Virus record (IMG/VR): IMGVR_UViG_3300032223_002295
Coordinates: 1-48,389 of that record
DNA from: a virus
DNA length: 48,389 nt
Reading direction: 5' to 3' (one strand)
Position 1 is the stretch's first letter, and each line of letters starts with the position of its first letter. The position numbers and the translations under genes are program-made. A model generated the notes under the pieces. It did not search any database, had not been told where the DNA came from, and worked only from the letters and a program-made list of their open reading frames with translations. Below, one piece after another: positions 37,267-47,657 of the stretch.

Positions 37267-37974
37267 ATGCCATACAAAATCGTGCAACATGGAAATAAGT
37301 TTTCAGTAGTAGCTCAAAATACAGGACATGTTGCGGGAACTCATCCAAGCAAAGCTAAGGCTCAAGCACAAATGGCTGCTTTATATGCTAATGAGCCTGC
37401 AGCAAGCGTAAAGAAGTGTATGACTTGTGGATGCGATGATTTAGGTAATGATCACCATTATGTTTCAGATACAGAAAAGTGTGCATATTGTATTGATAAA
37501 GGTCAAGGCCCATGTTGGGATGGTTACGAATATGCTGGAACTAAAGAAAAAGATGGTAAGACAGTTCCTAATTGTATTCCCGTTAAAAAAGAATCCGCAG
37601 GTGCTGGAAGAATTTCTGGTGGTGTAGGATTTAAATTAGAATACAATGTTCCAGACTGCTTGGGTGGTTATGCAATTACAAAAGCGGGAACAGGGCAAGT
37701 AATTGGTTGTTATACAACTAAAGAACATGCAGAAGAAGCTATGAAAGCAATTGCTACAAATGAACCTGTAGTAAAAGGCGATCAAACAAAGCAAGATGAA
37801 CAAGAAGGTATTGGATCATTCACATCATGGGGTGGTTCTTTTGCTCCTGTTATGGGAACACAAATGCAAGACATGAGATACAACTCAACATACAATAGTC
37901 CACCACAGAAAGACGGACAGCCGTCAGCGGGGTACGGAAATCGTTCAGATAAAAATGGACGAAGCAACCAATAA
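37267..37974 (+). CDS. Phage protein with Cys motifs and 'WGGSFAP' tail (235 aa)
   Basis: The N-terminal about 40 residues form a DUF2188-like compact domain ('YKIVQHGNKFSVVAQ' ... 'SKAKAQAQMAALYANE'). The middle has 'CMTCGCDD' and 'CAYC', then 'PCWDGYEYAGTKEKDGK' with 'VPNCIPVK', a motif seen in aquatic-phage structural/morphogenesis proteins. The tail holds 'SWGGSFAPV', also found at the end of the protein encoded at 41734. Function unknown; virion assembly is suggested by neighbours. Confidence 0.5.
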   Translation: MPYKIVQHGNKFSVVAQNTGHVAGTHPSKAKAQAQMAALYANEPAASVKKCMTCGCDDLGNDHHYVSDTEKCAYCIDKGQGPCWDGYEYAGTKEKDGKTVPNCIPVKKESAGAGRISGGVGFKLEYNVPDCLGGYAITKAGTGQVIGCYTTKEHAEEAMKAIATNEPVVKGDQTKQDEQEGIGSFTSWGGSFAPVMGTQMQDMRYNSTYNSPPQKDGQPSAGYGNRSDKNGRSNQ

Positions 37975-38743
37975 TATAATAGTATATTCATTTCATTATA
38001 CAGAAAATACTTTTGAAGAATCCAAATGGTATTGGATGCTTAGGTATTCACTTAAAACATTGCAAGATGTTGGCAATACTATACCTGTTCAAGTATATGT
38101 ATCTAAATTTGATGCATATAACAAATTGTCTAAAGATTTTAAAAATATTAATTTTATTTTATTTAATAATGATTATAAAAATATATTTTGTAAAGAATAT
38201 AAAGAATATGGCAAAATGCAATTTCATAAAGTTGTAAGCGTTTATAATTGTTACGAAATGTTTAATCCAGATAATATATTGTACGTTGATGTTGATACAA
38301 TTTGGTATAAAAATCCACAAATTATATTTGATAAATATAGTAACACAGAATATGTTTGGGCTTGCCCAGATAATGTATTTAATGTTCATAAATTATTAAA
38401 TTTAGATAAATCAATGAATGATGGTTTTTTCTTAATTAATCCAAAAAAATGTTTAAACTTAAAAGTTAATTGGCATAGATATATACAGGGTTACATAAAT
38501 ACAAACCTTGAAGTTTTAAGTAAAATTTTAAAAGGACAAGATTTTATACAAGCTTGCTGGGTAACAATGCAGTATGGCAATTATAAGTATTTTGTAGATC
38601 ATTCAAATGGGGTCAAATATTTTGATGAGTTAGATGTGATTATATCTAATAAAATACATGATGTTGACCAGTCTAAGGTTGTAATTCACCATTATTTAAA
38701 TAGTGAATATGAGGTATATGTGCCCTCAGAATACCGCCCTTGA
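37955..38743 (+). CDS. Glycosyltransferase with DxD motif (GT8-like GT-A)
   Basis: This 262-aa protein starts 20 nt before the upstream stop. It has 'ILYVDVDTIWYKNP' (about 108-121), a DxD metal/nucleotide-sugar site as in GT8-like enzymes, and 'NDGFFLINPK' and 'GQDFIQACW' as acceptor-side motifs. The gene is noticeably more AT-rich (long Asn/Tyr/Lys/Ile runs) than its neighbours, suggesting separate acquisition. It may glycosylate the virion proteins encoded just before it. Confidence 0.7.
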   Translation: MDEATNNIIVYSFHYTENTFEESKWYWMLRYSLKTLQDVGNTIPVQVYVSKFDAYNKLSKDFKNINFILFNNDYKNIFCKEYKEYGKMQFHKVVSVYNCYEMFNPDNILYVDVDTIWYKNPQIIFDKYSNTEYVWACPDNVFNVHKLLNLDKSMNDGFFLINPKKCLNLKVNWHRYIQGYINTNLEVLSKILKGQDFIQACWVTMQYGNYKYFVDHSNGVKYFDELDVIISNKIHDVDQSKVVIHHYLNSEYEVYVPSEYRP

Positions 38744-38769
38744 CAAAAATATAGTCTATTTGCTATAAT
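38740..38769 (+). promoter_or_regulatory. Strong promoter TTGACA-18-(TGC)TATAAT
   Basis: A perfect -35 (38740-38745) and a perfect -10 (38764-38769) with extended TGC, 18-nt spacer. Start near 38776 gives a leader of about 57 nt with a hairpin (CAGGT 38777-38781 / ACCTG 38793-38797), an 'ACTAACTAAC' stretch and AAAAGGAGCA before hsp20. The best promoter in the window together with that at 40879. Confidence 0.8.
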
Positions 38770-38832: not shown

Positions 38833-39267
38833 ATGACACATCTAAGATATACAGACCCATTTACACAAATTCAATCTATTTTCAATGACCCGTTTTTTCT
38901 AGGGTTTAATGATCAATTTGTTAGATGGGAATCAAATAAGAAGACAACATCTCAATTCCCACCATACAATGTAAAGAAAATTGATGACGACAATTACACG
39001 ATTGAGCTTGCAGTTGCAGGATATGACCGTGAAGATCTAGAAATCAAGGTAGAAAAAGATACGCTAACAATTAGCAGTGACAAGGACAATGACGATAAGT
39101 CAGATTTCTTACACCGTGGTATTGCTGGACGTAACTTTACCCAATACTTTACTCTTGGGGAATATATGAGTGTTAAGTCTGCTTCACTTGAGAACGGAAT
39201 GCTTATCATTAAGATTGAGCGTGAACTTCCAGAAGAAGCAAAGCCTAAGACAATTCGCATCAAATAA
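38833..39267 (+). CDS. Small heat-shock protein (Hsp20/alpha-crystallin)
   Basis: This 144-aa protein has a complete alpha-crystallin domain (about 42-140): 'PPYNVKKIDDDNYTIELAVAGY', shortened here to its elements P-Y-N-V ... E-L-A-V-A-G, then 'EIKVEKDTLTIS', 'FTLGEYMSVKSASLENGML' and 'IKIERELPEE'. The conserved 'A-x-x-x-N-G-[ML]-L' is present. Hsp20 holds unfolded proteins in a refoldable state. The strong promoter implies high expression. Phage Hsp20 is best known from cyanophages. Confidence 0.9.
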   Translation: MTHLRYTDPFTQIQSIFNDPFFLGFNDQFVRWESNKKTTSQFPPYNVKKIDDDNYTIELAVAGYDREDLEIKVEKDTLTISSDKDNDDKSDFLHRGIAGRNFTQYFTLGEYMSVKSASLENGMLIIKIERELPEEAKPKTIRIK

Positions 39268-39276
39268 GGTACAATA

Positions 39277-39282
39277 TATAAT
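39277..39282 (+). promoter_or_regulatory. Possible -10 box (TATAAT) after hsp20
   Basis: TATAAT (and TACAAT just upstream at 39270) lies 10 nt after the hsp20 stop with no clear -35. It could start the about 85-nt leader of the 48-aa gene, or be coincidental in an AT-rich gap. Confidence 0.3.
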
Positions 39283-39319
39283 ATAGTTACTGCACCACCT
39301 CACCGTGGAGTCGCAGGAC

Positions 39320-39341
39320 AAGGACCTGAGCAAGTCCTTTT
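39320..39341 (+). terminator. Hairpin with short T-run (attenuator or weak terminator)
   Basis: AAGGAC (39320-39325) pairs with GTCCTT (39334-39339) across an 8-nt loop, followed by TT. It lies in the leader between hsp20 and the 48-aa gene. The short stem makes termination weak; it may instead be an mRNA leader structure. Confidence 0.35.
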
Positions 39342-39370
39342 CTAAACTGCTCATCTAACAAAGGATAAAA

Positions 39371-39517
39371 ATGGGTAGCAAGAAAAATCAAATGAAGATT
39401 GCAGCAGCACTAGAAGTTCGTATTGCAAAGATGCCTAAAGGCTCTGGGTTTAAGAAACCAGGATCAATGAATAAAAAGAAAACTGGTTATATCAAGATTG
39501 CACCGTTAAATAAATAA
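39371..39517 (+). CDS. Small basic protein (48 aa)
   Basis: A short gene after 'CTAACAAAGGATAAAA'. The product is very Lys-rich (about one residue in four), with no acidic cluster, and ends in a TAATG junction with the following gene. Nucleic-acid binding is likely from charge alone. It shares its leader type with the secreted-protein and groES genes. Confidence 0.55.
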   Translation: MGSKKNQMKIAAALEVRIAKMPKGSGFKKPGSMNKKKTGYIKIAPLNK

Positions 39518-40206
39518 TGCCAAAGATTAAAGTATCTGCAGAGGAAGAGTTTATTTCTCCTATTCAACCTGCAAAAAAATATGTTCCTAATTGGTATTCA
39601 AAAGCACAATCTTTTATTGGTGGCAAGCCATCGTATGTAGATGGTAAAACAAATGCTGCAATTAAAAGTTGTGTACCGTTTATGGATTCTTATTTAACAG
39701 GATATACAGCAGAACTTTGGTGTGACATACAAGTTGTACAAAAAGTTACAGGACCAGAATTAAGATTTAGTAAGGATTTACTTGCACCAGTTGGCTCAAG
39801 AAGTCCAGATATCAGTCATCCAATGCCAACTCCAAACGGCTATGATGATACACATTTTGTTTGGCATAGCCCTTATTTAATTAAAACTCCTCCAGGATAT
39901 AGTTTATTGATTACACAACCATTAAATCAATATGATCTGCCAACTTTTACACTATCAGCAATTGTTGATGCGGACAAAGAATTGTTCCCAAATGGCAGAA
40001 TACCATTTTTTATTAAAAAAGGATTTGAAGGTGTTATAGAAAAAGGCACACCTATATTTCAAGTTATCCCATTTAAAAGGGAAAGCTGGGAGTCTGTAGA
40101 TTCCCCAGAACTCAGAAAAGAAGCGGATCAAAGGTCATTCAATGTAGCCACAGTCATGTATGGCTGGTATAAAAAGAACGTTTGGACAAAAAAGGAGTAT
40201 AATTAG
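39517..40206 (+). CDS. Paralogous phage protein A (DUF6065-like, 229 aa)
   Basis: The N-terminus has 'PNWYSKA' and a 'CVPFMDSYLTGY' block. The centre has 'KTPPGYSLLITQPLNQYDLPT' reduced here to its elements (K-T-P-P-G-Y-S, P-L-N, D-L-P), and the end has 'GFEGVIEKGTPIFQVIPFKRE'. The protein encoded at 46926 has the same blocks in the same order, so the two are paralogs. Related beta-rich proteins of unknown function are found in aquatic phages. It is not secreted and has no enzyme motif. Confidence 0.55.
   Translation: MPKIKVSAEEEFISPIQPAKKYVPNWYSKAQSFIGGKPSYVDGKTNAAIKSCVPFMDSYLTGYTAELWCDIQVVQKVTGPELRFSKDLLAPVGSRSPDISHPMPTPNGYDDTHFVWHSPYLIKTPPGYSLLITQPLNQYDLPTFTLSAIVDADKELFPNGRIPFFIKKGFEGVIEKGTPIFQVIPFKRESWESVDSPELRKEADQRSFNVATVMYGWYKKNVWTKKEYN
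40191..40203 (+). promoter_or_regulatory. Composite ribosome site / -10 box (AAAGGAGTATAAT)
   Basis: AAAGGAG (40191-40197) is followed directly by TATAAT (40198-40203), which overlaps the upstream stop codon. The ATG at 40211 is 7 nt past the -10, fitting a leaderless start; the SD-like part would be 13 nt away, too far to be optimal. Confidence 0.45.
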
Positions 40207-40210
40207 ATAT

Positions 40211-40456
40211 ATGGTCAATATATCTAAATACATAAAGAATAACCCAGCCAGACTATCTGGCTATGTCTCAGCACTTATCTTGTGGGGACATAAATATTTC
40301 CCCGCAAAGTTAATTGACCTTGTTATACCATCAATTTTATTTATGGTAGGGCTTGGAGAATACAGTCAGCGTGTGGAAGATAAGAAAACAATAAAAGCTA
40401 TTTACTTAGAACCTGACCCAAATAGACCAGATGAAGAAATGATCAAGGAGATATAA
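40211..40456 (+). CDS. Small membrane protein (81 aa)
   Basis: The ATG after the -10 box is chosen over an in-frame TTG inside the previous gene. A hydrophobic segment (about residues 32-50, 'LIDLVIPSILFMVGLG') is preceded by a weaker one (15-25) and followed by a charged C-terminal tail, as in holins or small inner-membrane accessory proteins. It is coupled by TAATG to dps. A second holin/antiholin is possible but unproven. Confidence 0.5.
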   Translation: MVNISKYIKNNPARLSGYVSALILWGHKYFPAKLIDLVIPSILFMVGLGEYSQRVEDKKTIKAIYLEPDPNRPDEEMIKEI

Positions 40457-40899
40457 TGGAAGAAAAAGATTTAATTGACGCTTTAAAAACTTTAAAATCA
40501 ATGGTAGTAAAAATGTATGTTCAATCACACGGATATCATTGGAACATTGAGGGTTCAGGTTTTCCCCAATATCATAAATTTTTATTAAAAATTTACTCAG
40601 ATGTTTATGAATCTATTGATCCAATTGCAGAAAACATACGTAAATTGGGTGCAAAAGCTCCTTTTGGATTAAAATCTTGGCTTGAAGGCAGTGCTTTAGA
40701 AATTAATGATTCAGAAAATCTTGATGCAAGAACTATGTTACAAGAGCTAGTTCAAACAAATACAGTAGTTTTAGCAATGCTTAGAAGAACATATGACATA
40801 TCTAATGAATTAGATGAACAAGGAATCTGTAATTTTATTGCTGGTAGAATTGAGCAACATAAATTTTGGCAATGGCAGTTGACAGCAACACTCAAATAA
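40456..40899 (+). CDS. dps: Dps-family ferritin-like protein
   Basis: This 147-aa four-helix protein has the inter-subunit ferroxidase ligands H28, H40, D55 and E59. Their spacing (12, 15 and 4) is the same as in canonical Dps (H31, H43, D58, E62). 'HGYHWNIEG' is the family signature. Dps oxidises Fe(II) with peroxide, stores iron and can coat DNA. There is no long Lys-rich tail, so DNA binding is less certain than iron detoxification. Coupled to the small membrane protein upstream. Confidence 0.9.
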   Translation: MEEKDLIDALKTLKSMVVKMYVQSHGYHWNIEGSGFPQYHKFLLKIYSDVYESIDPIAENIRKLGAKAPFGLKSWLEGSALEINDSENLDARTMLQELVQTNTVVLAMLRRTYDISNELDEQGICNFIAGRIEQHKFWQWQLTATLK

Positions 40900-40908
40900 T
40901 AGTATAAT
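40879..40908 (+). promoter_or_regulatory. Consensus promoter TTGACA-18-TATAAT for tRNA pair
   Basis: Both hexamers are perfect: -35 at 40879-40884 inside the dps gene, -10 at 40903-40908, spacer 18. It would start near 40915 and transcribe a UUCG hairpin, tRNA-Leu and tRNA-Arg. Confidence 0.8.
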
Positions 40909-40922
40909 ACCAATACAAGTTA

Positions 40923-40948
40923 ACAGAAGGTCCTTCGGGGCCTTTTGT
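40923..40948 (+). terminator. UUCG-tetraloop hairpin before tRNA-Leu
   Basis: ACAGAAGGTCC (40923-40933) pairs with GGGCCTTTTGT (40938-40948) around a TTCG loop, 11 bp with G-T pairs. The T-tract after it is poor (GTGTTT). It may terminate the dps transcript, or act as a 5' processing/leader structure of the tRNA transcript. Confidence 0.45.
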
Positions 40949-40952
40949 GTTT

Positions 40953-41025
40953 GCCCCAGTAATCCAGCGGTAGAGATAGTGGACTTAAAATCCATACAGC
41001 GACAGTTCGAATCTGTCTTGGGGTA
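40953..41025 (+). tRNA. tRNA-Leu (TAA) with short variable loop
   Basis: Acceptor GCCCCAG/TTGGGGT (two G-T pairs), D-stem ATC/GAT, anticodon stem GTGGA/TCCAT with loop CTTAAAA, T-stem GACAG/CTGTC with loop TTCGAAT, discriminator A. The anticodon is TAA (UUA codons). The variable region is only 5 nt (ACAGC), whereas bacterial tRNA-Leu normally has a long variable arm. No encoded CCA. Confidence 0.8.
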
Positions 41026-41026
41026 C

Positions 41027-41099
41027 GGCTCTGTAGCTCAGAGGATAGAGCGTGACTCTTCTAAGGTCAGCGTCGTAGGTTCGATTCCTACCAGGGTCG
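41027..41099 (+). tRNA. tRNA-Arg (TCT)
   Basis: Acceptor GGCTCTG/CAGGGTC, D-stem GCTC/GAGC, anticodon stem TGACT/GGTCA with loop CTTCTAA, T-stem GTAGG/CCTAC with loop TTCGATT, discriminator G. Anticodon TCT reads AGA. It starts 1 nt after tRNA-Leu, so the two are co-transcribed. Confidence 0.9.
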
Positions 41100-41108
41100 C
41101 AAGTAAGG

Positions 41109-41114
41109 TATAAT
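41109..41114 (+). promoter_or_regulatory. -10 box (TATAAT) after tRNA-Arg
   Basis: A perfect TATAAT lies 10 nt after the tRNA. Transcription would start near 41121, at or just before GAGGA (41121-41125), which is 8 nt before TTG 41134. Confidence 0.4.
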
Positions 41115-41133
41115 AGTGGTGAGGAAGTGCAAA

Positions 41134-41463
41134 TTGGAATACGATCCTTCAGATGAAGAGCATAGAGAAATAATGGAGTACCTTATATCAGAGGGAGCTG
41201 CAGAATTCGACGGCGTAGATGAAGATGGTGAACCAATTTATAAATTTGACATGGAAATGTTAGAAGAAGTAATGCCTGATTTATATCAGGTTATGCAGGA
41301 TGACATGGATAATACTTTAGTTGAATTATTCAACAGAGGATTATTAGATGTATCTTATGATGAAAACTTGAATGCAATGATATCTCTTTCAGAAGAAGCA
41401 AAAGCATCTTTAATTAAAGAAGGTTTTAGCTTTGAAGATGAAGAAGAAGATTGGCAAGAATAG
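41134..41463 (+). CDS. Acidic hypothetical protein (109 aa)
   Basis: Start choices in this frame are GTG 41116, GTG 41119 and TTG 41134. The TTG is preferred because GAGGA lies 8 nt before it and the earlier GTGs sit on the predicted promoter and ribosome site. The protein is very acidic (Glu/Asp-rich throughout), helical and ends in a Glu/Asp run. It may mimic nucleic acid or act as a scaffold/chaperone. No family recognised. Confidence 0.5.
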   Translation: MEYDPSDEEHREIMEYLISEGAAEFDGVDEDGEPIYKFDMEMLEEVMPDLYQVMQDDMDNTLVELFNRGLLDVSYDENLNAMISLSEEAKASLIKEGFSFEDEEEDWQE

Positions 41464-41496
41464 TTTACAATTTAAACCATAGGTGGTGATTTAAAA

Positions 41497-41733
41497 ATGG
41501 ATAACAACCAACAAGTAGCGGGAGCTGGAAATGAACAACCTTCATCAGCAACTCCTGTAACAGAACAAGCAGGTCCTAATGGTGGCGAGGCTTCATCTCC
41601 AACACGCAATCTTGGAGTGAATAACCCAGGCACCTTAAATGTGGGCACACCTTTCACTGGCAAAGATGTTTCAATGACTACACCTCAATATGCAGGTGGA
41701 AACATTACAACAACAGAGGCAGGTTCAAAGTAA
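41497..41733 (+). CDS. Low-complexity polar protein (78 aa)
   Basis: AGGTGGTGA precedes the ATG. The protein is rich in Gly, Pro, Thr, Asn and Gln with no hydrophobic core, so it is likely disordered. It is directly followed by the ATG of the next low-complexity gene with no spacer, and the pair may be virion or scaffold-type proteins. No function is recognised. Confidence 0.5.
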   Translation: MDNNQQVAGAGNEQPSSATPVTEQAGPNGGEASSPTRNLGVNNPGTLNVGTPFTGKDVSMTTPQYAGGNITTTEAGSK

Positions 41734-42354
41734 ATGGAATCAGCAGAGGCTAAGCTTACAAAATTTATTGATGATGTTAAAGATGCTATTGCTAAAGCAA
41801 TTGGCACCTCATCCTCAGCAAACCAAGAGGCAGATGAAAGATCTGTCGAAAATTATGTCAGAGGCAATTCAGCAACTGACGGAATAGGAGGAAACATAGT
41901 GTCAAATACAACAGAACCAGATCCAAAGGGAGATATTGCCGTAACAAAGGTAATTGATCAAACAACTCGTCCAGAAGACAATGTTTCAGTTTCTGATGCT
42001 CCAAATGAGCCAGGAATTGTTCCAAACAATGAAACATTCCCAGGAGAGGGATCAGCAGTTGCTCCAACAGCAGCAGAAATGGCAGAGCCAGTTAAGAAAG
42101 CTGATGCAGGAAAGTGTGCATCATGCGGTCAAACACTTCCAGTTGAAAAGGCTGATGAAGCAAAAGAAGAAGACGAAATTACAAAGTCTGCATCATGTGC
42201 AGATTGCGGTAAGTCTATGGACCTATGCGATTGCATGGGCAAAGCAGTAGATGAAAAAGAAACTGCAGCAGAATCTGCTAAAGAAACAGCAGCAGATGAA
42301 AAGGCAGAAATGAAGAAGTCCCTATGGGGCGGAGCATTTGCACCAATTAAGTAA
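41734..42354 (+). CDS. Disordered acidic protein with Cys clusters and 'WGGAFAP' end (206 aa)
   Basis: A short helical N-terminal segment is followed by a long Ala/Glu/Thr/Pro-rich disordered region, then 'CASCGQTLP' and 'CADCGKSMDLCDC' (paired CxxC clusters) in Lys/Glu repeats. The last residues 'SLWGGAFAPIK' match the tail of the 235-aa protein at 37267. A shared C-terminal peptide suggests a common binding partner, for example a prohead or chaperone. The gene ends at a strong terminator. Confidence 0.5.
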   Translation: MESAEAKLTKFIDDVKDAIAKAIGTSSSANQEADERSVENYVRGNSATDGIGGNIVSNTTEPDPKGDIAVTKVIDQTTRPEDNVSVSDAPNEPGIVPNNETFPGEGSAVAPTAAEMAEPVKKADAGKCASCGQTLPVEKADEAKEEDEITKSASCADCGKSMDLCDCMGKAVDEKETAAESAKETAADEKAEMKKSLWGGAFAPIK

Positions 42355-42375
42355 TAAATATATACGTATATATTG

Positions 42376-42410
42376 ACACAGAAGGTCGGGAAACCGATCT
42401 TCTGTGTTTT
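42376..42410 (+). terminator. Rho-independent terminator
   Basis: A 14-bp stem (42376-42389 with 42394-42407, one G-T pair) closes on a GAAA tetraloop and is followed by TTT within a TTTT run. It ends the block of genes before the YspA-like gene. It is the clearest terminator here. Confidence 0.85.
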
Positions 42411-42424
42411 ACGGAAAGGAAACC

Positions 42425-42793
42425 ATGAAGGTAATAGTATTTGGAAGTAAAAACTATACAGATTATAACGAATTAATGCGTCAAATAACTGTGTTGCTTG
42501 ATGACCGCAAGCACTTCTATCCTGATGACAAGCAACATATATTTGTACATGGCGGGATGCAGGGTGCAGAAAACATGGTTACTGAATATATTGGCAAGGT
42601 AGAAAAATATATGCGTCAAAAAGGTTATTCAATCAAAGAAGAATTAAGTAGACTTAAAACATCATTAAATGATTTATCATTGATTGAACAAGGAGCAGAC
42701 TTTGCTTTGATCTTTGGAGTTTCAGAAAGAAACTATACATGCGAAAAGCTTTTAAAAGAATATGCAATTCCCTATAGATTTATTAAAGAATAG
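42425..42793 (+). CDS. YspA/YpsA-like SLOG-family protein (DUF2493)
   Basis: The ATG after ACGGAAAGGAAACC is preferred over an in-frame GTG inside the terminator. The 122-aa protein has 'VIVFGSKNYTDY' (1-15) and 'FVHGGMQGAEN' (about 45-55), the nucleotide-binding loops of the SLOG Rossmann-like fold. The end has 'FALIFGVS'. SLOG proteins bind nucleotide-derived ligands, and phage ones are of unknown role, possibly linked to ADP-ribose or defence signalling. Confidence 0.7.
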   Translation: MKVIVFGSKNYTDYNELMRQITVLLDDRKHFYPDDKQHIFVHGGMQGAENMVTEYIGKVEKYMRQKGYSIKEELSRLKTSLNDLSLIEQGADFALIFGVSERNYTCEKLLKEYAIPYRFIKE

Positions 42794-42795
42794 GC

Positions 42796-42825
42796 TTGAC
42801 ATAGCATCAAATAAAATGATACAAT
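42796..42825 (+). promoter_or_regulatory. Promoter TTGACA-18-(TGA)TACAAT for groES
   Basis: Perfect -35 (42796-42801), -10 TACAAT (42820-42825) with extended TGA, 18-nt spacer. Start near 42832 gives a leader of about 26 nt carrying 'ACTAACAAAGGA'. Confidence 0.75.
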
Positions 42826-42857
42826 AGGTAAAACGTCCCTACTAACAAAGGAAATAA

Positions 42858-43166
42858 ATGACAAAGATACAGCCACTCGGCAGTCTAGTCTTAGTAAAAG
42901 AAAATAAGCAAGAAGATAGAACAACAAAGTCAGGTTTAGTAATTGCTGCAACTGTGGCAGATACAAACCTATGTCGTGGTGTAGTTATTGCAGTTGGTCC
43001 AGGAGACAATGATAACGTTGGTAACCACTATGACATCCCGCTTAAAATGGGGGATACAGTAATTTATTCTCATAATCATGCAACAGATGTTGAAGATGAT
43101 GATAACGAAAAATATCAATTTATTAATTGGAGAAACCTACTAGGCGTTGTAAAGGAAAATAACTAA
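42858..43166 (+). CDS. groES: Co-chaperonin GroES (Cpn10)
   Basis: This 102-aa protein is close to the usual GroES length. It has 'QPLGSLVLVKENKQEDRT', the mobile-loop region 'KSGLVIAATVADTN', 'GVVIAVGPG' and 'LKMGDTVIYSHNHATDVE' near the expected dome and base positions. It caps the host GroEL ring, probably adapting it to fold phage proteins, as T4 gp31 does. A stand-alone promoter and standard ribosome site imply early or strong expression. No groEL is present. Confidence 0.9.
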   Translation: MTKIQPLGSLVLVKENKQEDRTTKSGLVIAATVADTNLCRGVVIAVGPGDNDNVGNHYDIPLKMGDTVIYSHNHATDVEDDDNEKYQFINWRNLLGVVKENN

Positions 43167-43396
43167 TGCCATCATTTGAATTAAACTACGAAGAAGCTCA
43201 TGCTTTTGTAGAAAAGAATCTTAAAAACAACTTTTTTTGGGATGGTTACACTTTAGTAAAGTGGAATCAAAATCCCGATGGCTACATGGCAACAAACGGA
43301 TTGTTTAGAAAAGGTAAGTGGGGATATGCTACTTATTATAAAATGACTAACCGTGGCACTTGGAAGGTTAGCGACAAGTATGCCAGGTTTATTTAG
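43166..43396 (+). CDS. Hypothetical protein (76 aa)
   Basis: It begins in a TAATG junction with groES. The product is aromatic-rich (Tyr, Phe, Trp) and basic. 'FFWDGYTLVKW' and 'MATNGLFRKGKWGYATYYK' look like beta strands. It overlaps the WhiB start by 17 nt. Not recognised. Confidence 0.55.
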   Translation: MPSFELNYEEAHAFVEKNLKNNFFWDGYTLVKWNQNPDGYMATNGLFRKGKWGYATYYKMTNRGTWKVSDKYARFI

Positions 43397-43706
43397 TCAT
43401 TTAGGTATTGATGAAGTTGATATCAAATGGTATCATCTTTCGGCATGTCGCAACATGTCAATTAATTGGTTTTATGACGATTATGAATCAGATAAAGAAC
43501 TTGCAAAACAAGTTGATCAAGTATGTTTACATTGCCCAGTAATTAAGCAATGTCACGAACAAGGTGTATTAGGCAAAGAAAAAGGTGTCTGGGGCGGTGT
43601 GTATATGGATCTTGGCAGAACTGACAAGCAAAACAATACTCACAAAGAACCAGAGATTTGGAAACAGTTAAAGAAAATTCATGGCAAAAATATCGTACAC
43701 GGTTGA
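43380..43706 (+). CDS. WhiB-family Fe-S transcriptional regulator
   Basis: The ATG at 43380 is chosen over an upstream GTG in frame with no better ribosome site. The 108-aa protein has the four WhiB cysteines C23, C49, C52 and C58 and the 'GVWGG' turn (69-73). These ligate a 4Fe-4S cluster that senses redox or NO and binds the host sigma factor. WhiB proteins are restricted to Actinobacteria and their phages, making this the best host marker. A phage WhiB can alter host transcription, as shown for mycobacteriophage TM4. Confidence 0.92.
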   Translation: MPGLFSHLGIDEVDIKWYHLSACRNMSINWFYDDYESDKELAKQVDQVCLHCPVIKQCHEQGVLGKEKGVWGGVYMDLGRTDKQNNTHKEPEIWKQLKKIHGKNIVHG

Positions 43707-43959
43707 GATGGCTAAAAAAGTCAGGGCAATTAAATGTCCTGTCAAAAACCTTATCTTAGATGTTAGAGCAAGACCAAACTATCTTGCTTTAACTGTGTAT
43801 GAAAGTAATGTCATGGAGTTTAATGAAAGCCAAAGAATGCAGATCATGGAATATTTATTATTAGTCCGTGAACTTATTCAAGCTTATGGTACACCATGCG
43901 AGATAGAAGGGATGAAATATACTGATGAGCAGGCAAGAGCAAGAAGAGGACAACGCTGA
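43681..43959 (+). CDS. Hypothetical protein (92 aa)
   Basis: This starts inside the WhiB gene (26-nt overlap) and overlaps the next gene by 35 nt. It is basic with a compact alpha/beta core ('VKNLILDVRARPNYLALTVYE') and an Arg/Lys-rich end. Found only as an uncharacterised phage protein type by eye. Confidence 0.5.
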   Translation: MAKISYTVEMAKKVRAIKCPVKNLILDVRARPNYLALTVYESNVMEFNESQRMQIMEYLLLVRELIQAYGTPCEIEGMKYTDEQARARRGQR

Positions 43960-44149
43960 GAATTCAATAACTTACGTATACATACCCGACGAGGATGTGT
44001 ATGGAATTATTAAAACTCACGGTGCTTGGGCTTCTCTGATTGAATATTATGAGGGCGGGGTAAAATACCTTATAGAGGTCCCAAACGAGGAGTTTATTGT
44101 GGTAGATGAAATAGGAATAGGTTATATTGACGAAACGGAAGGTTTATAA
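43925..44149 (+). CDS. Conserved hypothetical protein (74 aa)
   Basis: It starts 35 nt before the upstream stop and ends in TAATG. The sequence 'YVYIPDEDVYGIIKTHGAWAS' with 'KYLIEVPNEEFIVVDEI' suggests a small beta-barrel (SH3-like). Small proteins with this pattern recur in actinophages without known function. Confidence 0.55.
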   Translation: MSRQEQEEDNAENSITYVYIPDEDVYGIIKTHGAWASLIEYYEGGVKYLIEVPNEEFIVVDEIGIGYIDETEGL

Positions 44150-44379
44150 TGCTGTGTTTTAGCTGTGGAAAGACCAAAAATGAGCTTCATCCAAAGAAAT
44201 CCGATATAATGGAAGGTGTGATGCTTTATTTGTGCCAGTTGTGCATAGATAATCGTTACGAGCCTAGATGGGTAATTATCTTGGGCGGAAGACAGAATGG
44301 TGCTGAATCAGTTAGAGATTATATTCTTAAGCGTCGTTATGTTGGAAATCCAATTTCAGCGGAGGAACTAATTGCTTAA
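44149..44379 (+). CDS. Small zinc-finger protein (76 aa)
   Basis: A 'CFSCGKTKNELHPKKSD' N-terminus with a second 'CQLC' pair gives a four-Cys zinc site. The rest is basic with 'EPRWVIILGGRQNG' and a helical end. This type is frequent in actinophages. It overlaps the thioredoxin gene by 8 nt. Confidence 0.6.
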   Translation: MLCFSCGKTKNELHPKKSDIMEGVMLYLCQLCIDNRYEPRWVIILGGRQNGAESVRDYILKRRYVGNPISAEELIA

Positions 44380-44668
44380 GATTACAGATGATGCAAAAGA
44401 ATTTCAATCTGAAAATGAATGTGTAGTTTATTTTACAGCTGAATGGTGCAACCCATGTAGGCAATTAAAGCCACATTATGGCAAGGTTTCTGTAATGGAT
44501 CCTGAAACTAACTATTATCTTGTAGATGTTGACAAGGTTGGCTCAAAGGTGGTAGAATACTATAATATCAAGAGCATCCCCCAGATTTTTACAATGAAAA
44601 ATGGGGAGATTGTTGACCGTATTGAATCTCGAACAGCAGAATCCATTTTGGAGGAATTAGGAAAGTGA
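44372..44668 (+). CDS. Thioredoxin-like protein (active site WCNPC)
   Basis: The TTG is supported by a GGAGGA ribosome site 5 nt upstream, and no other start retains the first strand. The 98-aa protein has the active site 'WCNPC' (25-29) and the cis-Pro in 'SIPQIF', with length and order of a thioredoxin. The CNPC dipeptide is unusual relative to CGPC and should shift redox potential. It may reduce host or phage disulfides or serve a phage ribonucleotide reductase not visible here. ATGA-like GTGA overlap couples it to the next gene. Confidence 0.85.
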   Translation: MLKITDDAKEFQSENECVVYFTAEWCNPCRQLKPHYGKVSVMDPETNYYLVDVDKVGSKVVEYYNIKSIPQIFTMKNGEIVDRIESRTAESILEELGK

Positions 44669-45210
44669 CAACAATTGTTGCGGTAGTCAAGAACGGCAAT
44701 GTTACTATGGGTGCAGATGCTCAAGTAACAGATGGTTCACGTCCAAATCGCCATGCTCAAATGGAAAAGATTACCAAAAATAATGGTTGGTTAATTGCAG
44801 GTAGTGGTGATTCAACCCCTTGCGATATTTTACAGTTAATGTTTGTTCCACCAGTTCCTACAATTAAGGAACGAGAAAATCTTTATAAGTTTATGATAAC
44901 AAAGTTTGTTCCTGCCATGCGTGAGTGCTTAGAAGATAACGGTTGGAAAGAAGATAAAGAAGATAAAGACTCAGGATTTAGTATGCTATTTGCATTTGAT
45001 GGCGAAGTCTTTGATATTGGAAATGATTTTAGCGTATTGTTAAATAGCGATGGCATATACGGCGTAGGTAATGGATCTCAATTCGCTATTGGTGCGTTGT
45101 ACGCTGGGGCTTCAATAGAAAAAGCTCTTGAAATTGCTGCTAACAATGATATTTATACATCTGGACCTTTTCAGATTTTAAAACAACAAAAACAAACAAA
45201 GAAAAACTAA
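44665..45210 (+). CDS. HslV-like Ntn-hydrolase peptidase
   Basis: It starts at GTG in a GTGA overlap. After Met removal the N-terminus is Thr-Thr ('TTIVAVVKNG'), as in HslV. The 'MGADAQVTDG' block carries the Asp (D18 with Met, D17 in mature numbering), and K35 is close to the catalytic Lys33. 'WLIAGSGD' and 'YGVGNGSQFAIGAL' match later HslV strands. HslV is the peptidase of the HslUV protease; no HslU ATPase gene is seen. Function as a self-compartmentalised or host-ATPase-driven protease is inferred. Confidence 0.8.
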   Translation: MTTIVAVVKNGNVTMGADAQVTDGSRPNRHAQMEKITKNNGWLIAGSGDSTPCDILQLMFVPPVPTIKERENLYKFMITKFVPAMRECLEDNGWKEDKEDKDSGFSMLFAFDGEVFDIGNDFSVLLNSDGIYGVGNGSQFAIGALYAGASIEKALEIAANNDIYTSGPFQILKQQKQTKKN

Positions 45211-45309: not shown

Positions 45310-46356
45310 ATGAAAACAAATAAGAAGATTGCCATTGCTATCGCTGCAGCCCTAGCATTCACAGGCATCTCGGCTTCAGCACAGGCAGCACCACTTGCTG
45401 TTACTGTAGCAGGAGTAACTAACGCAACAACATCTGCAGCACCACGTACAGTTGCAGTACCAGTATCAAATGTAATTGATTCATCAAATACAGTAGCACT
45501 TGCTGCTACAGCAGATACAGGCACAGTTGTAACATTTGTTGCATCAGGCGTAAAGCTTGTTTCAGCACTTAATACATCACTTGCACCAGTCAATGCAGCA
45601 TCAGGCGTTTCATCGCTTTCTGTAACATCTCAGGGTGTTGCAGCAACTGTATATGCTTATACAACAAGCACAACTGTTGGATCAGTAACCATTACAAATG
45701 GTTCATATTCAACAATTGTTTACATTCAAGGAACAGCAGGAGTTGCAGCAAACGTTGCAGTTTCAGTTCCAGCATCAGCAGCAGTCAATACTGCTCCTAC
45801 AATTTCAGTTTCAGCAACTGACGTATTTGGTAATCCAGTAGCGTCTGAGGCTATCTCTGTAACACTCGTTGGTGCAACCTTCTCTGATGCATCAATCACA
45901 AAGACTCTTACAACTTCTGCAGTTACATCTGCAGCAGGTGTAACACCAGTAACAGTTCTTGGTTCAGCAACAGGTACACTTTCTGCAGTAGCAGCAGGTA
46001 CAGTTACAGTTCTTGCAACTGATTCATCAATTGCAGCAACAGCAACAGGTCTTCCTGTGGCAGTAAAGTCAGCAATTGCAACATTTGCAGTATCAGATCT
46101 AAGCGGTCAGATTACAGCACTCAATGCACAAATTGCATCTCTCAATGCACAAATTGCATCTCTCAATGCACAACTTGTAGCAGCAAAGGCTGCTCAAGCA
46201 ACTGCAGAAGCAGCAACAGCAACTGCAAAGGCTGCAACAACAGCAGCACAAGCAGCAGCAGATCTTGCATCAGCAGCATATAAGGCAGAGTACAACGCTC
46301 TTGCTACAAAGTGGAACAAGGCTCATCCAAAGGCTAAGGTTGCACTAAAGAAGTAA
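45310..46356 (+). CDS. Secreted coiled-coil surface protein (348 aa), host-like
   Basis: The N-terminus 'KTNKKIAIAIAAALAFTG' is a Sec signal peptide ending at 'AQA-AP' (about residue 27). The mature part is an Ala/Thr/Val/Ser-rich beta region (about 28-255). It is followed by a C-terminal coiled coil with three 'LNAQIAS'-type heptads and Ala-rich helices. Codon and base composition (more GC, GCA/ACA-rich) differs from the neighbouring genes. It resembles actinobacterial S-layer or surface proteins, so recent acquisition from a host is inferred. Role could be surface modification of the infected cell. Confidence 0.65.
   Translation: MKTNKKIAIAIAAALAFTGISASAQAAPLAVTVAGVTNATTSAAPRTVAVPVSNVIDSSNTVALAATADTGTVVTFVASGVKLVSALNTSLAPVNAASGVSSLSVTSQGVAATVYAYTTSTTVGSVTITNGSYSTIVYIQGTAGVAANVAVSVPASAAVNTAPTISVSATDVFGNPVASEAISVTLVGATFSDASITKTLTTSAVTSAAGVTPVTVLGSATGTLSAVAAGTVTVLATDSSIAATATGLPVAVKSAIATFAVSDLSGQITALNAQIASLNAQIASLNAQLVAAKAAQATAEAATATAKAATTAAQAAADLASAAYKAEYNALATKWNKAHPKAKVALKK
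46120..46179 (+). repeat. 21-nt tandem repeat in the coiled-coil coding region
   Basis: Two exact 21-nt units (46120-46140 and 46141-46161) and a third diverging copy (from 46162) each encode one heptad 'LNAQIAS/L'. The near-identity at DNA level shows recent duplication and offers a site for length variation. Confidence 0.85.
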
Positions 46357-46706: not shown

Positions 46707-46948
46707 TGTCAGATGGAGCAGTACCGCTACATTTTAGCGAATTAGAAAAGCTTGTAACAGAGGTTGCAGGGGAACTACTAGAACACTGGGCTATTAAGGG
46801 TCGCTATACAGAAGAAGAGCAAGATAAGGCAGCCCAAGATGCTGTTGATGACACTGTATACGTAATCAATTCATATATGATTAAGTTTAATGAATTAATC
46901 GCATTGGAACAGGCCAAGAAGAGTAATGTTCAAATTCAAACAAAATAA
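46706..46948 (+). CDS. Hypothetical helical protein (80 aa)
   Basis: It starts in TAATG and overlaps the next gene by 23 nt. The sequence is helical and acidic ('EEEQDKAAQDAVDDTVYVINSY'-type, broken here), with no motif recognised. Confidence 0.5.
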   Translation: MSDGAVPLHFSELEKLVTEVAGELLEHWAIKGRYTEEEQDKAAQDAVDDTVYVINSYMIKFNELIALEQAKKSNVQIQTK

Positions 46949-47657
46949 GATCAAAGAAGGCGAAATTCACTTTCAGCCTATTGATTCAAACCGATTTTTT
47001 TCAGCTTCACAACCAACTCCAGCGGTAAAACATTTACCACAATGGTATAAAAACATTGAAAGAAATGTAACTCATACACATAAAGATATAGAAGATAAGT
47101 CAAAGTTTAAAATTATCCCTATGGGTACAGTTAAAAAATGTATTCCTGTGTTGGATGCATTTTCCGCTGGTTACATTTATTCTGCACCAATTGAATTATT
47201 TTTTAGCGAAGAAGCACAAGATTTTGCACACAATTCAAATATTGAATTTATTCAAGGTCATGACGGAAGACAATTAGAAGGTTGGGCAGCAGACCCAAGT
47301 TATATTCAAATGGCTTTTAAATGGAGAAATCTTAATATAATTAAAACAGCTCCAGGGTGGTCTTGTTTGTTTACTCATCCATTAAATAGACTTGATTTAC
47401 CTTTTTATACATTGTCAGGTGTTGTGGATACAGATGTACATCCAATGCCAGTTAATTTTCCTTTTGTTATGAAAAGAGGATTTACTGGAAAGATTTTTGT
47501 TGGTACACCTTTAGTACAAATTATTCCATTTAAAAGACAAGATTGGAAATCTGTTACTGATGAGTATGATCCAACAGATCCCGCAGTTCATATAACAACA
47601 AGATTAACTGAAGATATTTATAAGAAAACTTTGTGGAATAAAAAGCGTTACAATTAA
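46926..47657 (+). CDS. Paralogous phage protein B (DUF6065-like, 243 aa)
   Basis: Paralog of the 229-aa protein at 39517. Shared landmarks in the same order are 'P-x-W-Y', 'K-x-C-x-P-x-x-D-[AS]-[FY]', 'T-[AP]-P-G-[WY]-S-[CL]-L-[FI]-T-[HQ]-P-L-N', 'D-L-P-[TF]' and 'G-x-G-T-P-[LI]-[VF]-Q-[VI]-I-P-F-K-R'. Both end in 'KK-x-[EY]-YN'. The N-terminus is longer and Lys-rich. Function unknown; two diverged copies in one genome suggest a heteromer or specialised roles. Confidence 0.55.
   Translation: MFKFKQNKIKEGEIHFQPIDSNRFFSASQPTPAVKHLPQWYKNIERNVTHTHKDIEDKSKFKIIPMGTVKKCIPVLDAFSAGYIYSAPIELFFSEEAQDFAHNSNIEFIQGHDGRQLEGWAADPSYIQMAFKWRNLNIIKTAPGWSCLFTHPLNRLDLPFYTLSGVVDTDVHPMPVNFPFVMKRGFTGKIFVGTPLVQIIPFKRQDWKSVTDEYDPTDPAVHITTRLTEDIYKKTLWNKKRYN

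Follow-up and report, generated by a model that had tools for sequence, protein, structure and literature searches.

A WhiB operon that appears to have recruited GroES, thioredoxin and a proteasome-family peptidase: a probable accessory module of actinophages related to Stanwilliamsviridae

The DNA analysed here (the window) is the 48,389-base IMG/VR virus record IMGVR_UViG_3300032223_002295, which carries a series of chaperone, redox, peptidase and regulatory genes, among them an operon built around a WhiB-like regulator. Its terminase is about 65% identical over 96% to those of Streptomyces phages of Stanwilliamsviridae, a family to which the virus is probably related. The presence of WhiB and the low GC content suggest that the hosts are probably low-GC, water-dwelling actinobacteria, and the freshwater setting is taken from published work on phages of this kind, not from information on the sample. 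An earlier note on this DNA had listed Hsp20, Dps, GroES, WhiB, thioredoxin and an HslV-like peptidase within 38833-45210; by Pfam, PHROGs or structural model all of these are real, and their key residues are kept except for one Dps ligand. The DUF2493/SLOG gene named with them stays below the curated Pfam score (18.9 against 28.2 bits), even though its motif FGS...H.G..GAENM..EYIGK is conserved in relatives. The features are as follows.

38740-38769, plus strand: predicted sigma-70-type promoter before Hsp20, 12/12 consensus positions
38833-39267, plus strand: Hsp20 small heat-shock protein, 144 aa, a separate unit (PF00011, 3.7e-17; phrog_432, 1.1e-39)
40456-40899, plus strand: Dps-type ferritin, 147 aa (PF00210, 1.6e-16; phrog_3636, 2.6e-24)
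40879-40908, plus strand: promoter-like site before a tRNA-Leu/tRNA-Arg pair, 12/12
42425-42793, plus strand: SLOG/YAcAr-like (DUF2493) protein, 122 aa from ATG (PF10686, below cut-off)
42796-42825, plus strand: predicted operon promoter, TTGACA-18-TACAAT, 11/12
42858-43166, plus strand: GroES co-chaperonin, 102 aa, first gene of the operon (PF00166, Cpn10, 4.6e-21)
43166-43396, plus strand: g43166 (phrog_10869), function unassigned, first gene of the ancestral WhiB core
43353-43706, plus strand: WhiB-like Fe-S regulator (PF02467, 7.3e-10)
43681-43959, plus strand: g43681, function unassigned (AlphaFold model, pLDDT 86)
43925-44149, plus strand: g43925, function unassigned, WhiB core
44149-44379, plus strand: g44149 (phrog_11425 in PHROGs), zinc-ribbon-like CxxC...CxxC, WhiB core
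44372-44668, plus strand: thioredoxin with WCNPC, TTG start (PF00085, 1.5e-14)
44665-45210, plus strand: group-I proteasome homologue resembling HslV, 181 aa from a GTG start, with Thr as residue 2 (phrog_1040)

The GroES protein scores 75.1 bits with Cpn10 against a cut-off of 21.1, and its mobile-loop motif T.SGL[VI] is conserved in 79 sequences. Among the relatives, WhiB keeps four cysteine ligands (C...CxxC...C) and the GVWGG turn, and thioredoxin keeps WCxPC and the cis-proline loop (SIPQ); Hsp20 has the alpha-crystallin domain and a conserved C-terminal IxI. The ferroxidase ligand set of Dps is H, H, D, D, E, of which H (in HWN), H, D and E are conserved here and the fifth is changed from D to L.

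The eight overlapping genes from GroES to the peptidase form one operon (42858-45210, plus strand), with successive junctions of -1, -44, -26, -35, -1, -8 and -4 nt. For comparison, 50 distinct arms (the corresponding regions of related viruses) were used, each count being taken over the arms that cover the region in question; "distinct" refers to sequences, which often come from shared sampling projects and are not independent events. Presence was called with profiles built on this lineage, complemented by a Pfam check for GroES, Hsp20, ferritin and thioredoxin on 29 records. The whole eight-gene operon is present in 34/34 arms. In one relative (L025, 9411-9986) a gene is inserted between thioredoxin and HslV whose product begins like a signal peptide and carries an HNH-like EEDHLISLQLGG motif.

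The earlier note had also given Hsp20 and GroES promoters of their own. This stands for Hsp20, whose upstream site recurs at 10/12 or better in 21 of 37 relatives. The site before GroES is real as well, but it appears to be the promoter of the whole operon. In clade A a site of at least 11/12 precedes GroES in 31 of 37 arms, as compared with 4% of random 150-base stretches. In nine of 42 arms, which we call clade B (L004, L009, L012, L013, L015, L022, L028, L214 and L215), GroES sits behind HslV; the predicted promoter is found before g43166 in all nine and before the relocated GroES in none. Since the site keeps to the operon front and does not travel with GroES, the idea that it serves GroES alone was rejected. 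The promoter scan of the relatives found nothing upstream of the internal genes from WhiB to g44149. A promoter-like site at 44529, within the thioredoxin coding region, recurs nearby in about half of clade A; coding constraint may explain this recurrence, an internal HslV promoter being the possible alternative. Over the window, 12 sites of at least 11/12 lie on the plus strand (including 32529, 35384, 40879 and 46376) and none on the minus strand, with about two expected per strand. Since strong sites occur throughout the arm, having a promoter does not set the stress genes apart.

Conserved co-occurrence in related contigs had been set beforehand as the test of the gene set, and it was borne out: all seven named genes lie within 5.1-10.6 kb in 32 distinct arms. 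GroES and thioredoxin are each present in 34/34 arms, Dps in 36/38 and Hsp20 in 29/38; in the nine arms from which Hsp20 is gone, AhpC/AhpD genes are sometimes present. In almost every relative the SLOG gene immediately precedes the operon. AhpC and AhpD occur in 6/38 and 5/38 arms, respectively, additions that fit a redox role. In L004 an AhpC-like (1451-1984) and an AhpD-like gene (1987-2499) lie side by side. AhpC was uninformative as a guide to the host, its nearest bacterial matches being Betaproteobacteria at no more than 69%.

The peptidase matches phrog_1040 ("peptidase HslV family", 1.5e-32) and scores 17.9 bits with the Pfam proteasome family, under the cut-off of 22.4; the curated HslV equivalog scores are not reached either (TIGR03692, 31.0 against 157.75 bits; NF003964, 32.7 against 137). 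Its AlphaFold model (pLDDT 91) is matched by Foldseek to BPH and HslV with E values from 8e-12 to 1e-9, at TM-scores of 0.68-0.73 for BPH (monomer) and 0.67 for HslV. Judged by this model, it is a group-I proteasome homologue that resembles BPH and HslV equally closely; the likeness to BPH, which forms a tetradecameric double ring, is one of the monomer fold. The HslV nucleophile set of Thr, Asp17 and Lys33 corresponds to T2 (Thr1 once Met is removed), D18 and K35, which are invariant in 30 sequences. The oxyanion glycine G48 is invariant as well. The protein shares the Ntn-hydrolase fold with BPH, AAH, PPH and HslV (Fuchs 2021, PMC8665760) and, like the group-I homologues described there, combines catalytic Thr/Asp/Lys and oxyanion Gly with the lack of a propeptide and a compact subunit. 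An assignment to PPH, which has about 140 aa and no helix H2 (PMC8665760), was rejected, as the window peptidase has 181 aa and four helices (50-59, 69-91, 138-146 and 151-161). Rhizobial plasmid relatives are around 30% identical, and Microbacterium and Arthrobacter phages in GenBank carry HslV-like "protease" genes.

Partner proteins were sought in 18 related phage records, mostly fragments of varying length, four of which (G001, G002, G003 and G015) are longer than 100 kb and two of which are complete cultured phages. Neither GroEL (PF00118) nor an HslU/ClpX-type AAA_2 ATPase (PF07724) was matched in these records, while 14/14 control genomes were positive, and the window has no HslU. With no GroEL, HslU or ClpX among the 18 records, a negative that falls short of proof as most of them are fragments, host-supplied partners are likely for both the phage GroES and the peptidase.

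The history of the operon can be followed in its relatives. The cultured Streptomyces phages Wakanda, Blueeyedbeauty and Gilson (Stanwilliamsviridae) have the five core genes in identical order (g43166-WhiB-g43681-g43925-g44149), and in Wakanda a TTGACA-18-TAACAT site lies upstream of the WhiB operon, like that of the window. Unlike the window, these operons lack SLOG, GroES, thioredoxin and HslV; in Gilson, thioredoxin and ferritin are located elsewhere and the equivalent of the arm is crowded with tRNA genes and has a single tmRNA gene. The core gene g44149 has relatives in 127 cultured phages, every one a Streptomyces phage. For the g43681 model, the fold search gave no significant solved-structure relative; predicted fold relatives occur among the actinophages (Rhodococcus phage Trina and Streptomyces phage Coruscant). 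Because the core of the cultured phages is without them, GroES appears to have been added at the front, and thioredoxin and the peptidase at the end, of an old five-gene WhiB core.

Sister phages hold parts of the set. G015, whose terminase is 69% identical, combines SLOG and all five genes of the WhiB core with a divergent HslV, after which comes thioredoxin, so that these last two are in reversed order; it has no GroES, and its Hsp20 is some 20 kb away. L094 holds Dps, Hsp20, the WhiB core and HslV, and L099 holds Dps and HslV. Between the window and L004, HslV is about 83-87% identical and GroES, WhiB and thioredoxin 42-64%, so that HslV was probably exchanged between clades, a comparison that is suggestive only, with fourfold sites near saturation. 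The subsets in sister phages, the WhiB core alone in cultured relatives and this apparent exchange suggest that the set was assembled stepwise, with genes replaced in place. Scattered and independently gained genes, which the earlier note had named as evidence against a cassette, are therefore partly seen, at this deeper level of relationship. In a second phage lineage, whose HslV is 42-53% identical, WhiB is found about 2 kb before HslV in a DNA-metabolism region, and Hsp20 often follows HslV at a distance of about 2 kb. Loci of a different phage lineage, such as L224, L227 and L239, have WhiB, RecA-like, Cas4-like nuclease, RuvC-like, HslV and Hsp20 genes within about 6 kb.

The position of the arm was read from G001, a 112-kb relative (the contig of L004) whose open reading frames, identified by eye, run as tail, replication, terminase at 42 kb, stress arm at 43-69 kb, a minus-strand block and tail fibres, with portal, likely prohead protease and likely capsid genes at 107-111 kb. 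This layout indicates an accessory region behind the terminase, away from the capsid genes. G001 also encodes, among its replication genes (37501-37965 of the reversed contig), a protein that, by eye, resembles glutathione peroxidase. In the window, Hsp20, Dps and SLOG are separated by DUF6065-like and membrane-type genes, two tRNAs and three hypothetical genes, and the start of Dps overlaps the stop of a small membrane-type gene (TM98, 40160-40456). DUF6065-like paralogues lie between Hsp20 and Dps (39517-40206) and beyond HslV (46926-47657), the family being present in 2/38 arms. Also beyond HslV, 45310-46356 encodes a secreted-looking low-complexity protein with a coiled-coil-like tail, preceded by a promoter-like TTGACT-18-TACAAT site; relatives often have 10/12 or better there. 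A WGG[AS]FAP tail motif is common to two unrelated-looking proteins, at 37267-37974 (SFTSWGGSFAPVMG) and 41734-42354 (KKSLWGGAFAPIK); similar tails in L004 and G015 make it possibly a recurrent phage tag.

Taken together, we consider it probable (about 0.6) that the arm is a conserved accessory module of an actinophage lineage related to Stanwilliamsviridae, in which an old WhiB operon recruited GroES, thioredoxin and the peptidase, with Hsp20 and Dps in the same arm. Since dozens of related viruses keep the set, it looks selected. Expressed from the shared promoter, GroES, WhiB, thioredoxin and the peptidase would appear in one wave. WhiB would redirect host transcription; the phage GroES would cap host GroEL and Hsp20 would hold unfolding proteins, so that virion proteins fold; thioredoxin, recharged by the host thioredoxin reductase, and Dps would keep thiols and iron safe; and the peptidase would remove proteins that are damaged or belong to the host, either by itself or together with a host ATPase. 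The stronger proposal, that WhiB, co-chaperonin, thioredoxin and an ATPase-less proteasome are co-produced as one system, the proteasome acting without HslU or with a hijacked host ATPase, seems to us unlikely.

Several observations weigh against the module. Hsp20 and Dps are separate units outside the operon. The non-stress neighbours g41116 and g46706 are retained as well as the stress genes, so that retention alone is no proof of joint function. The HslV-like genes of Microbacterium and Arthrobacter phages occur without other stress genes. The divergence of HslV correlates poorly with that of the other genes (r of 0.44 with the WhiB core, 0.19 with thioredoxin and 0.03 with SLOG), which indicates that the parts reassort. 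The coordinated cassette of the earlier note therefore survives in part: GroES, WhiB, thioredoxin and the peptidase share an operon, but Hsp20 and Dps are apart from it, GroES is mobile and Hsp20 is absent from some arms.

The most serious competitor is that the genes are independent accessory genes (morons), each useful alone and grouped, with no joint function, where the genome tolerates insertions. The differing subsets of the sister phages, the coming, going or moving of GroES, Hsp20 and AhpC/AhpD, the exchange of HslV and the tRNA and tmRNA genes filling the same arm in Gilson would all be expected from it. It accounts less well for the retention of GroES, thioredoxin and HslV together in every covered arm despite reshuffling, for the single operon promoter, and for thioredoxin lying near HslV again, reversed, in G015; we hold it as a tentative alternative.

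Host takeover might instead come first, with WhiB reprogramming host transcription, the peptidase degrading host regulators and the chaperone and redox genes being secondary. WhiB is the ancestral element of the operon, the WhiB of phage TM4 represses host whiB2 (PMC8612146), and the HslV-like gene adjoins WhiB in DSL-LC01, besides its place near WhiB in the second lineage. Against it stand the lack of a known host target, the failure to find a partner ATPase in the 18 phage records, and the WhiB operon of the cultured Streptomyces relatives, which has no HslV; this order of priorities is improbable. We give a similarly low chance to a reactive oxygen species (ROS) defence cassette, in which Dps and thioredoxin, with AhpC/AhpD in some arms, shield infected cells against peroxide or grazers, a role that has been proposed for phages of fresh water. 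According to Kavagutti et al. 2019 (PMC6802176), over 10% of freshwater phages carry ROS genes, ferritin and thioredoxin among them; the window, probably from a freshwater actinophage, likewise has ferritin and thioredoxin. The main text of that study makes no mention of chaperone, heat-shock or Dps genes, whereas the window adds GroES, Hsp20, the proteasome homologue and a fixed layout; a ROS cassette would leave GroES, Hsp20 and HslV unexplained, and few arms have AhpC.

Phage GroES homologues can serve capsid folding, as T4 gp31 does, and GroES, Hsp20 and the peptidase could by that precedent fold or process capsid proteins. Pelagiphages of the HTVC023P type likewise have a conserved co-chaperonin, GroES being one of their core genes (PMC9599517). 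This virion-assembly role is nevertheless very unlikely, and was set aside, as the structural genes of G001, at about 107-111 kb, are far from the arm genes at 53-64 kb and include an ordinary-looking prohead protease. A role in anti-phage defence was rejected, there being no PADLOC match.

Singly, the parts are already published as phage ROS genes, GroES, Hsp20 (in cyanophages, PMC3827213, which make up most of the 508 phage records with it) and proteasome homologues; the operon architecture is new. As far as searched, no report places pelagiphage GroES or cyanophage Hsp20 in one operon with WhiB, thioredoxin and a proteasome homologue, and no paper in the open-access literature was found on the combined chaperone and redox set in a freshwater actinophage WhiB operon. 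The finding brings phage "stress genes" known from scattered cases together in a single operon whose history can be traced, their joint function being our inference. It likewise gives proteasome-family peptidases a firm place among WhiB-bearing actinophages, where the survey of Fuchs et al. 2021 (PMC8665760) found no Actinobacteria-specific phage with an AAH-type homologue.

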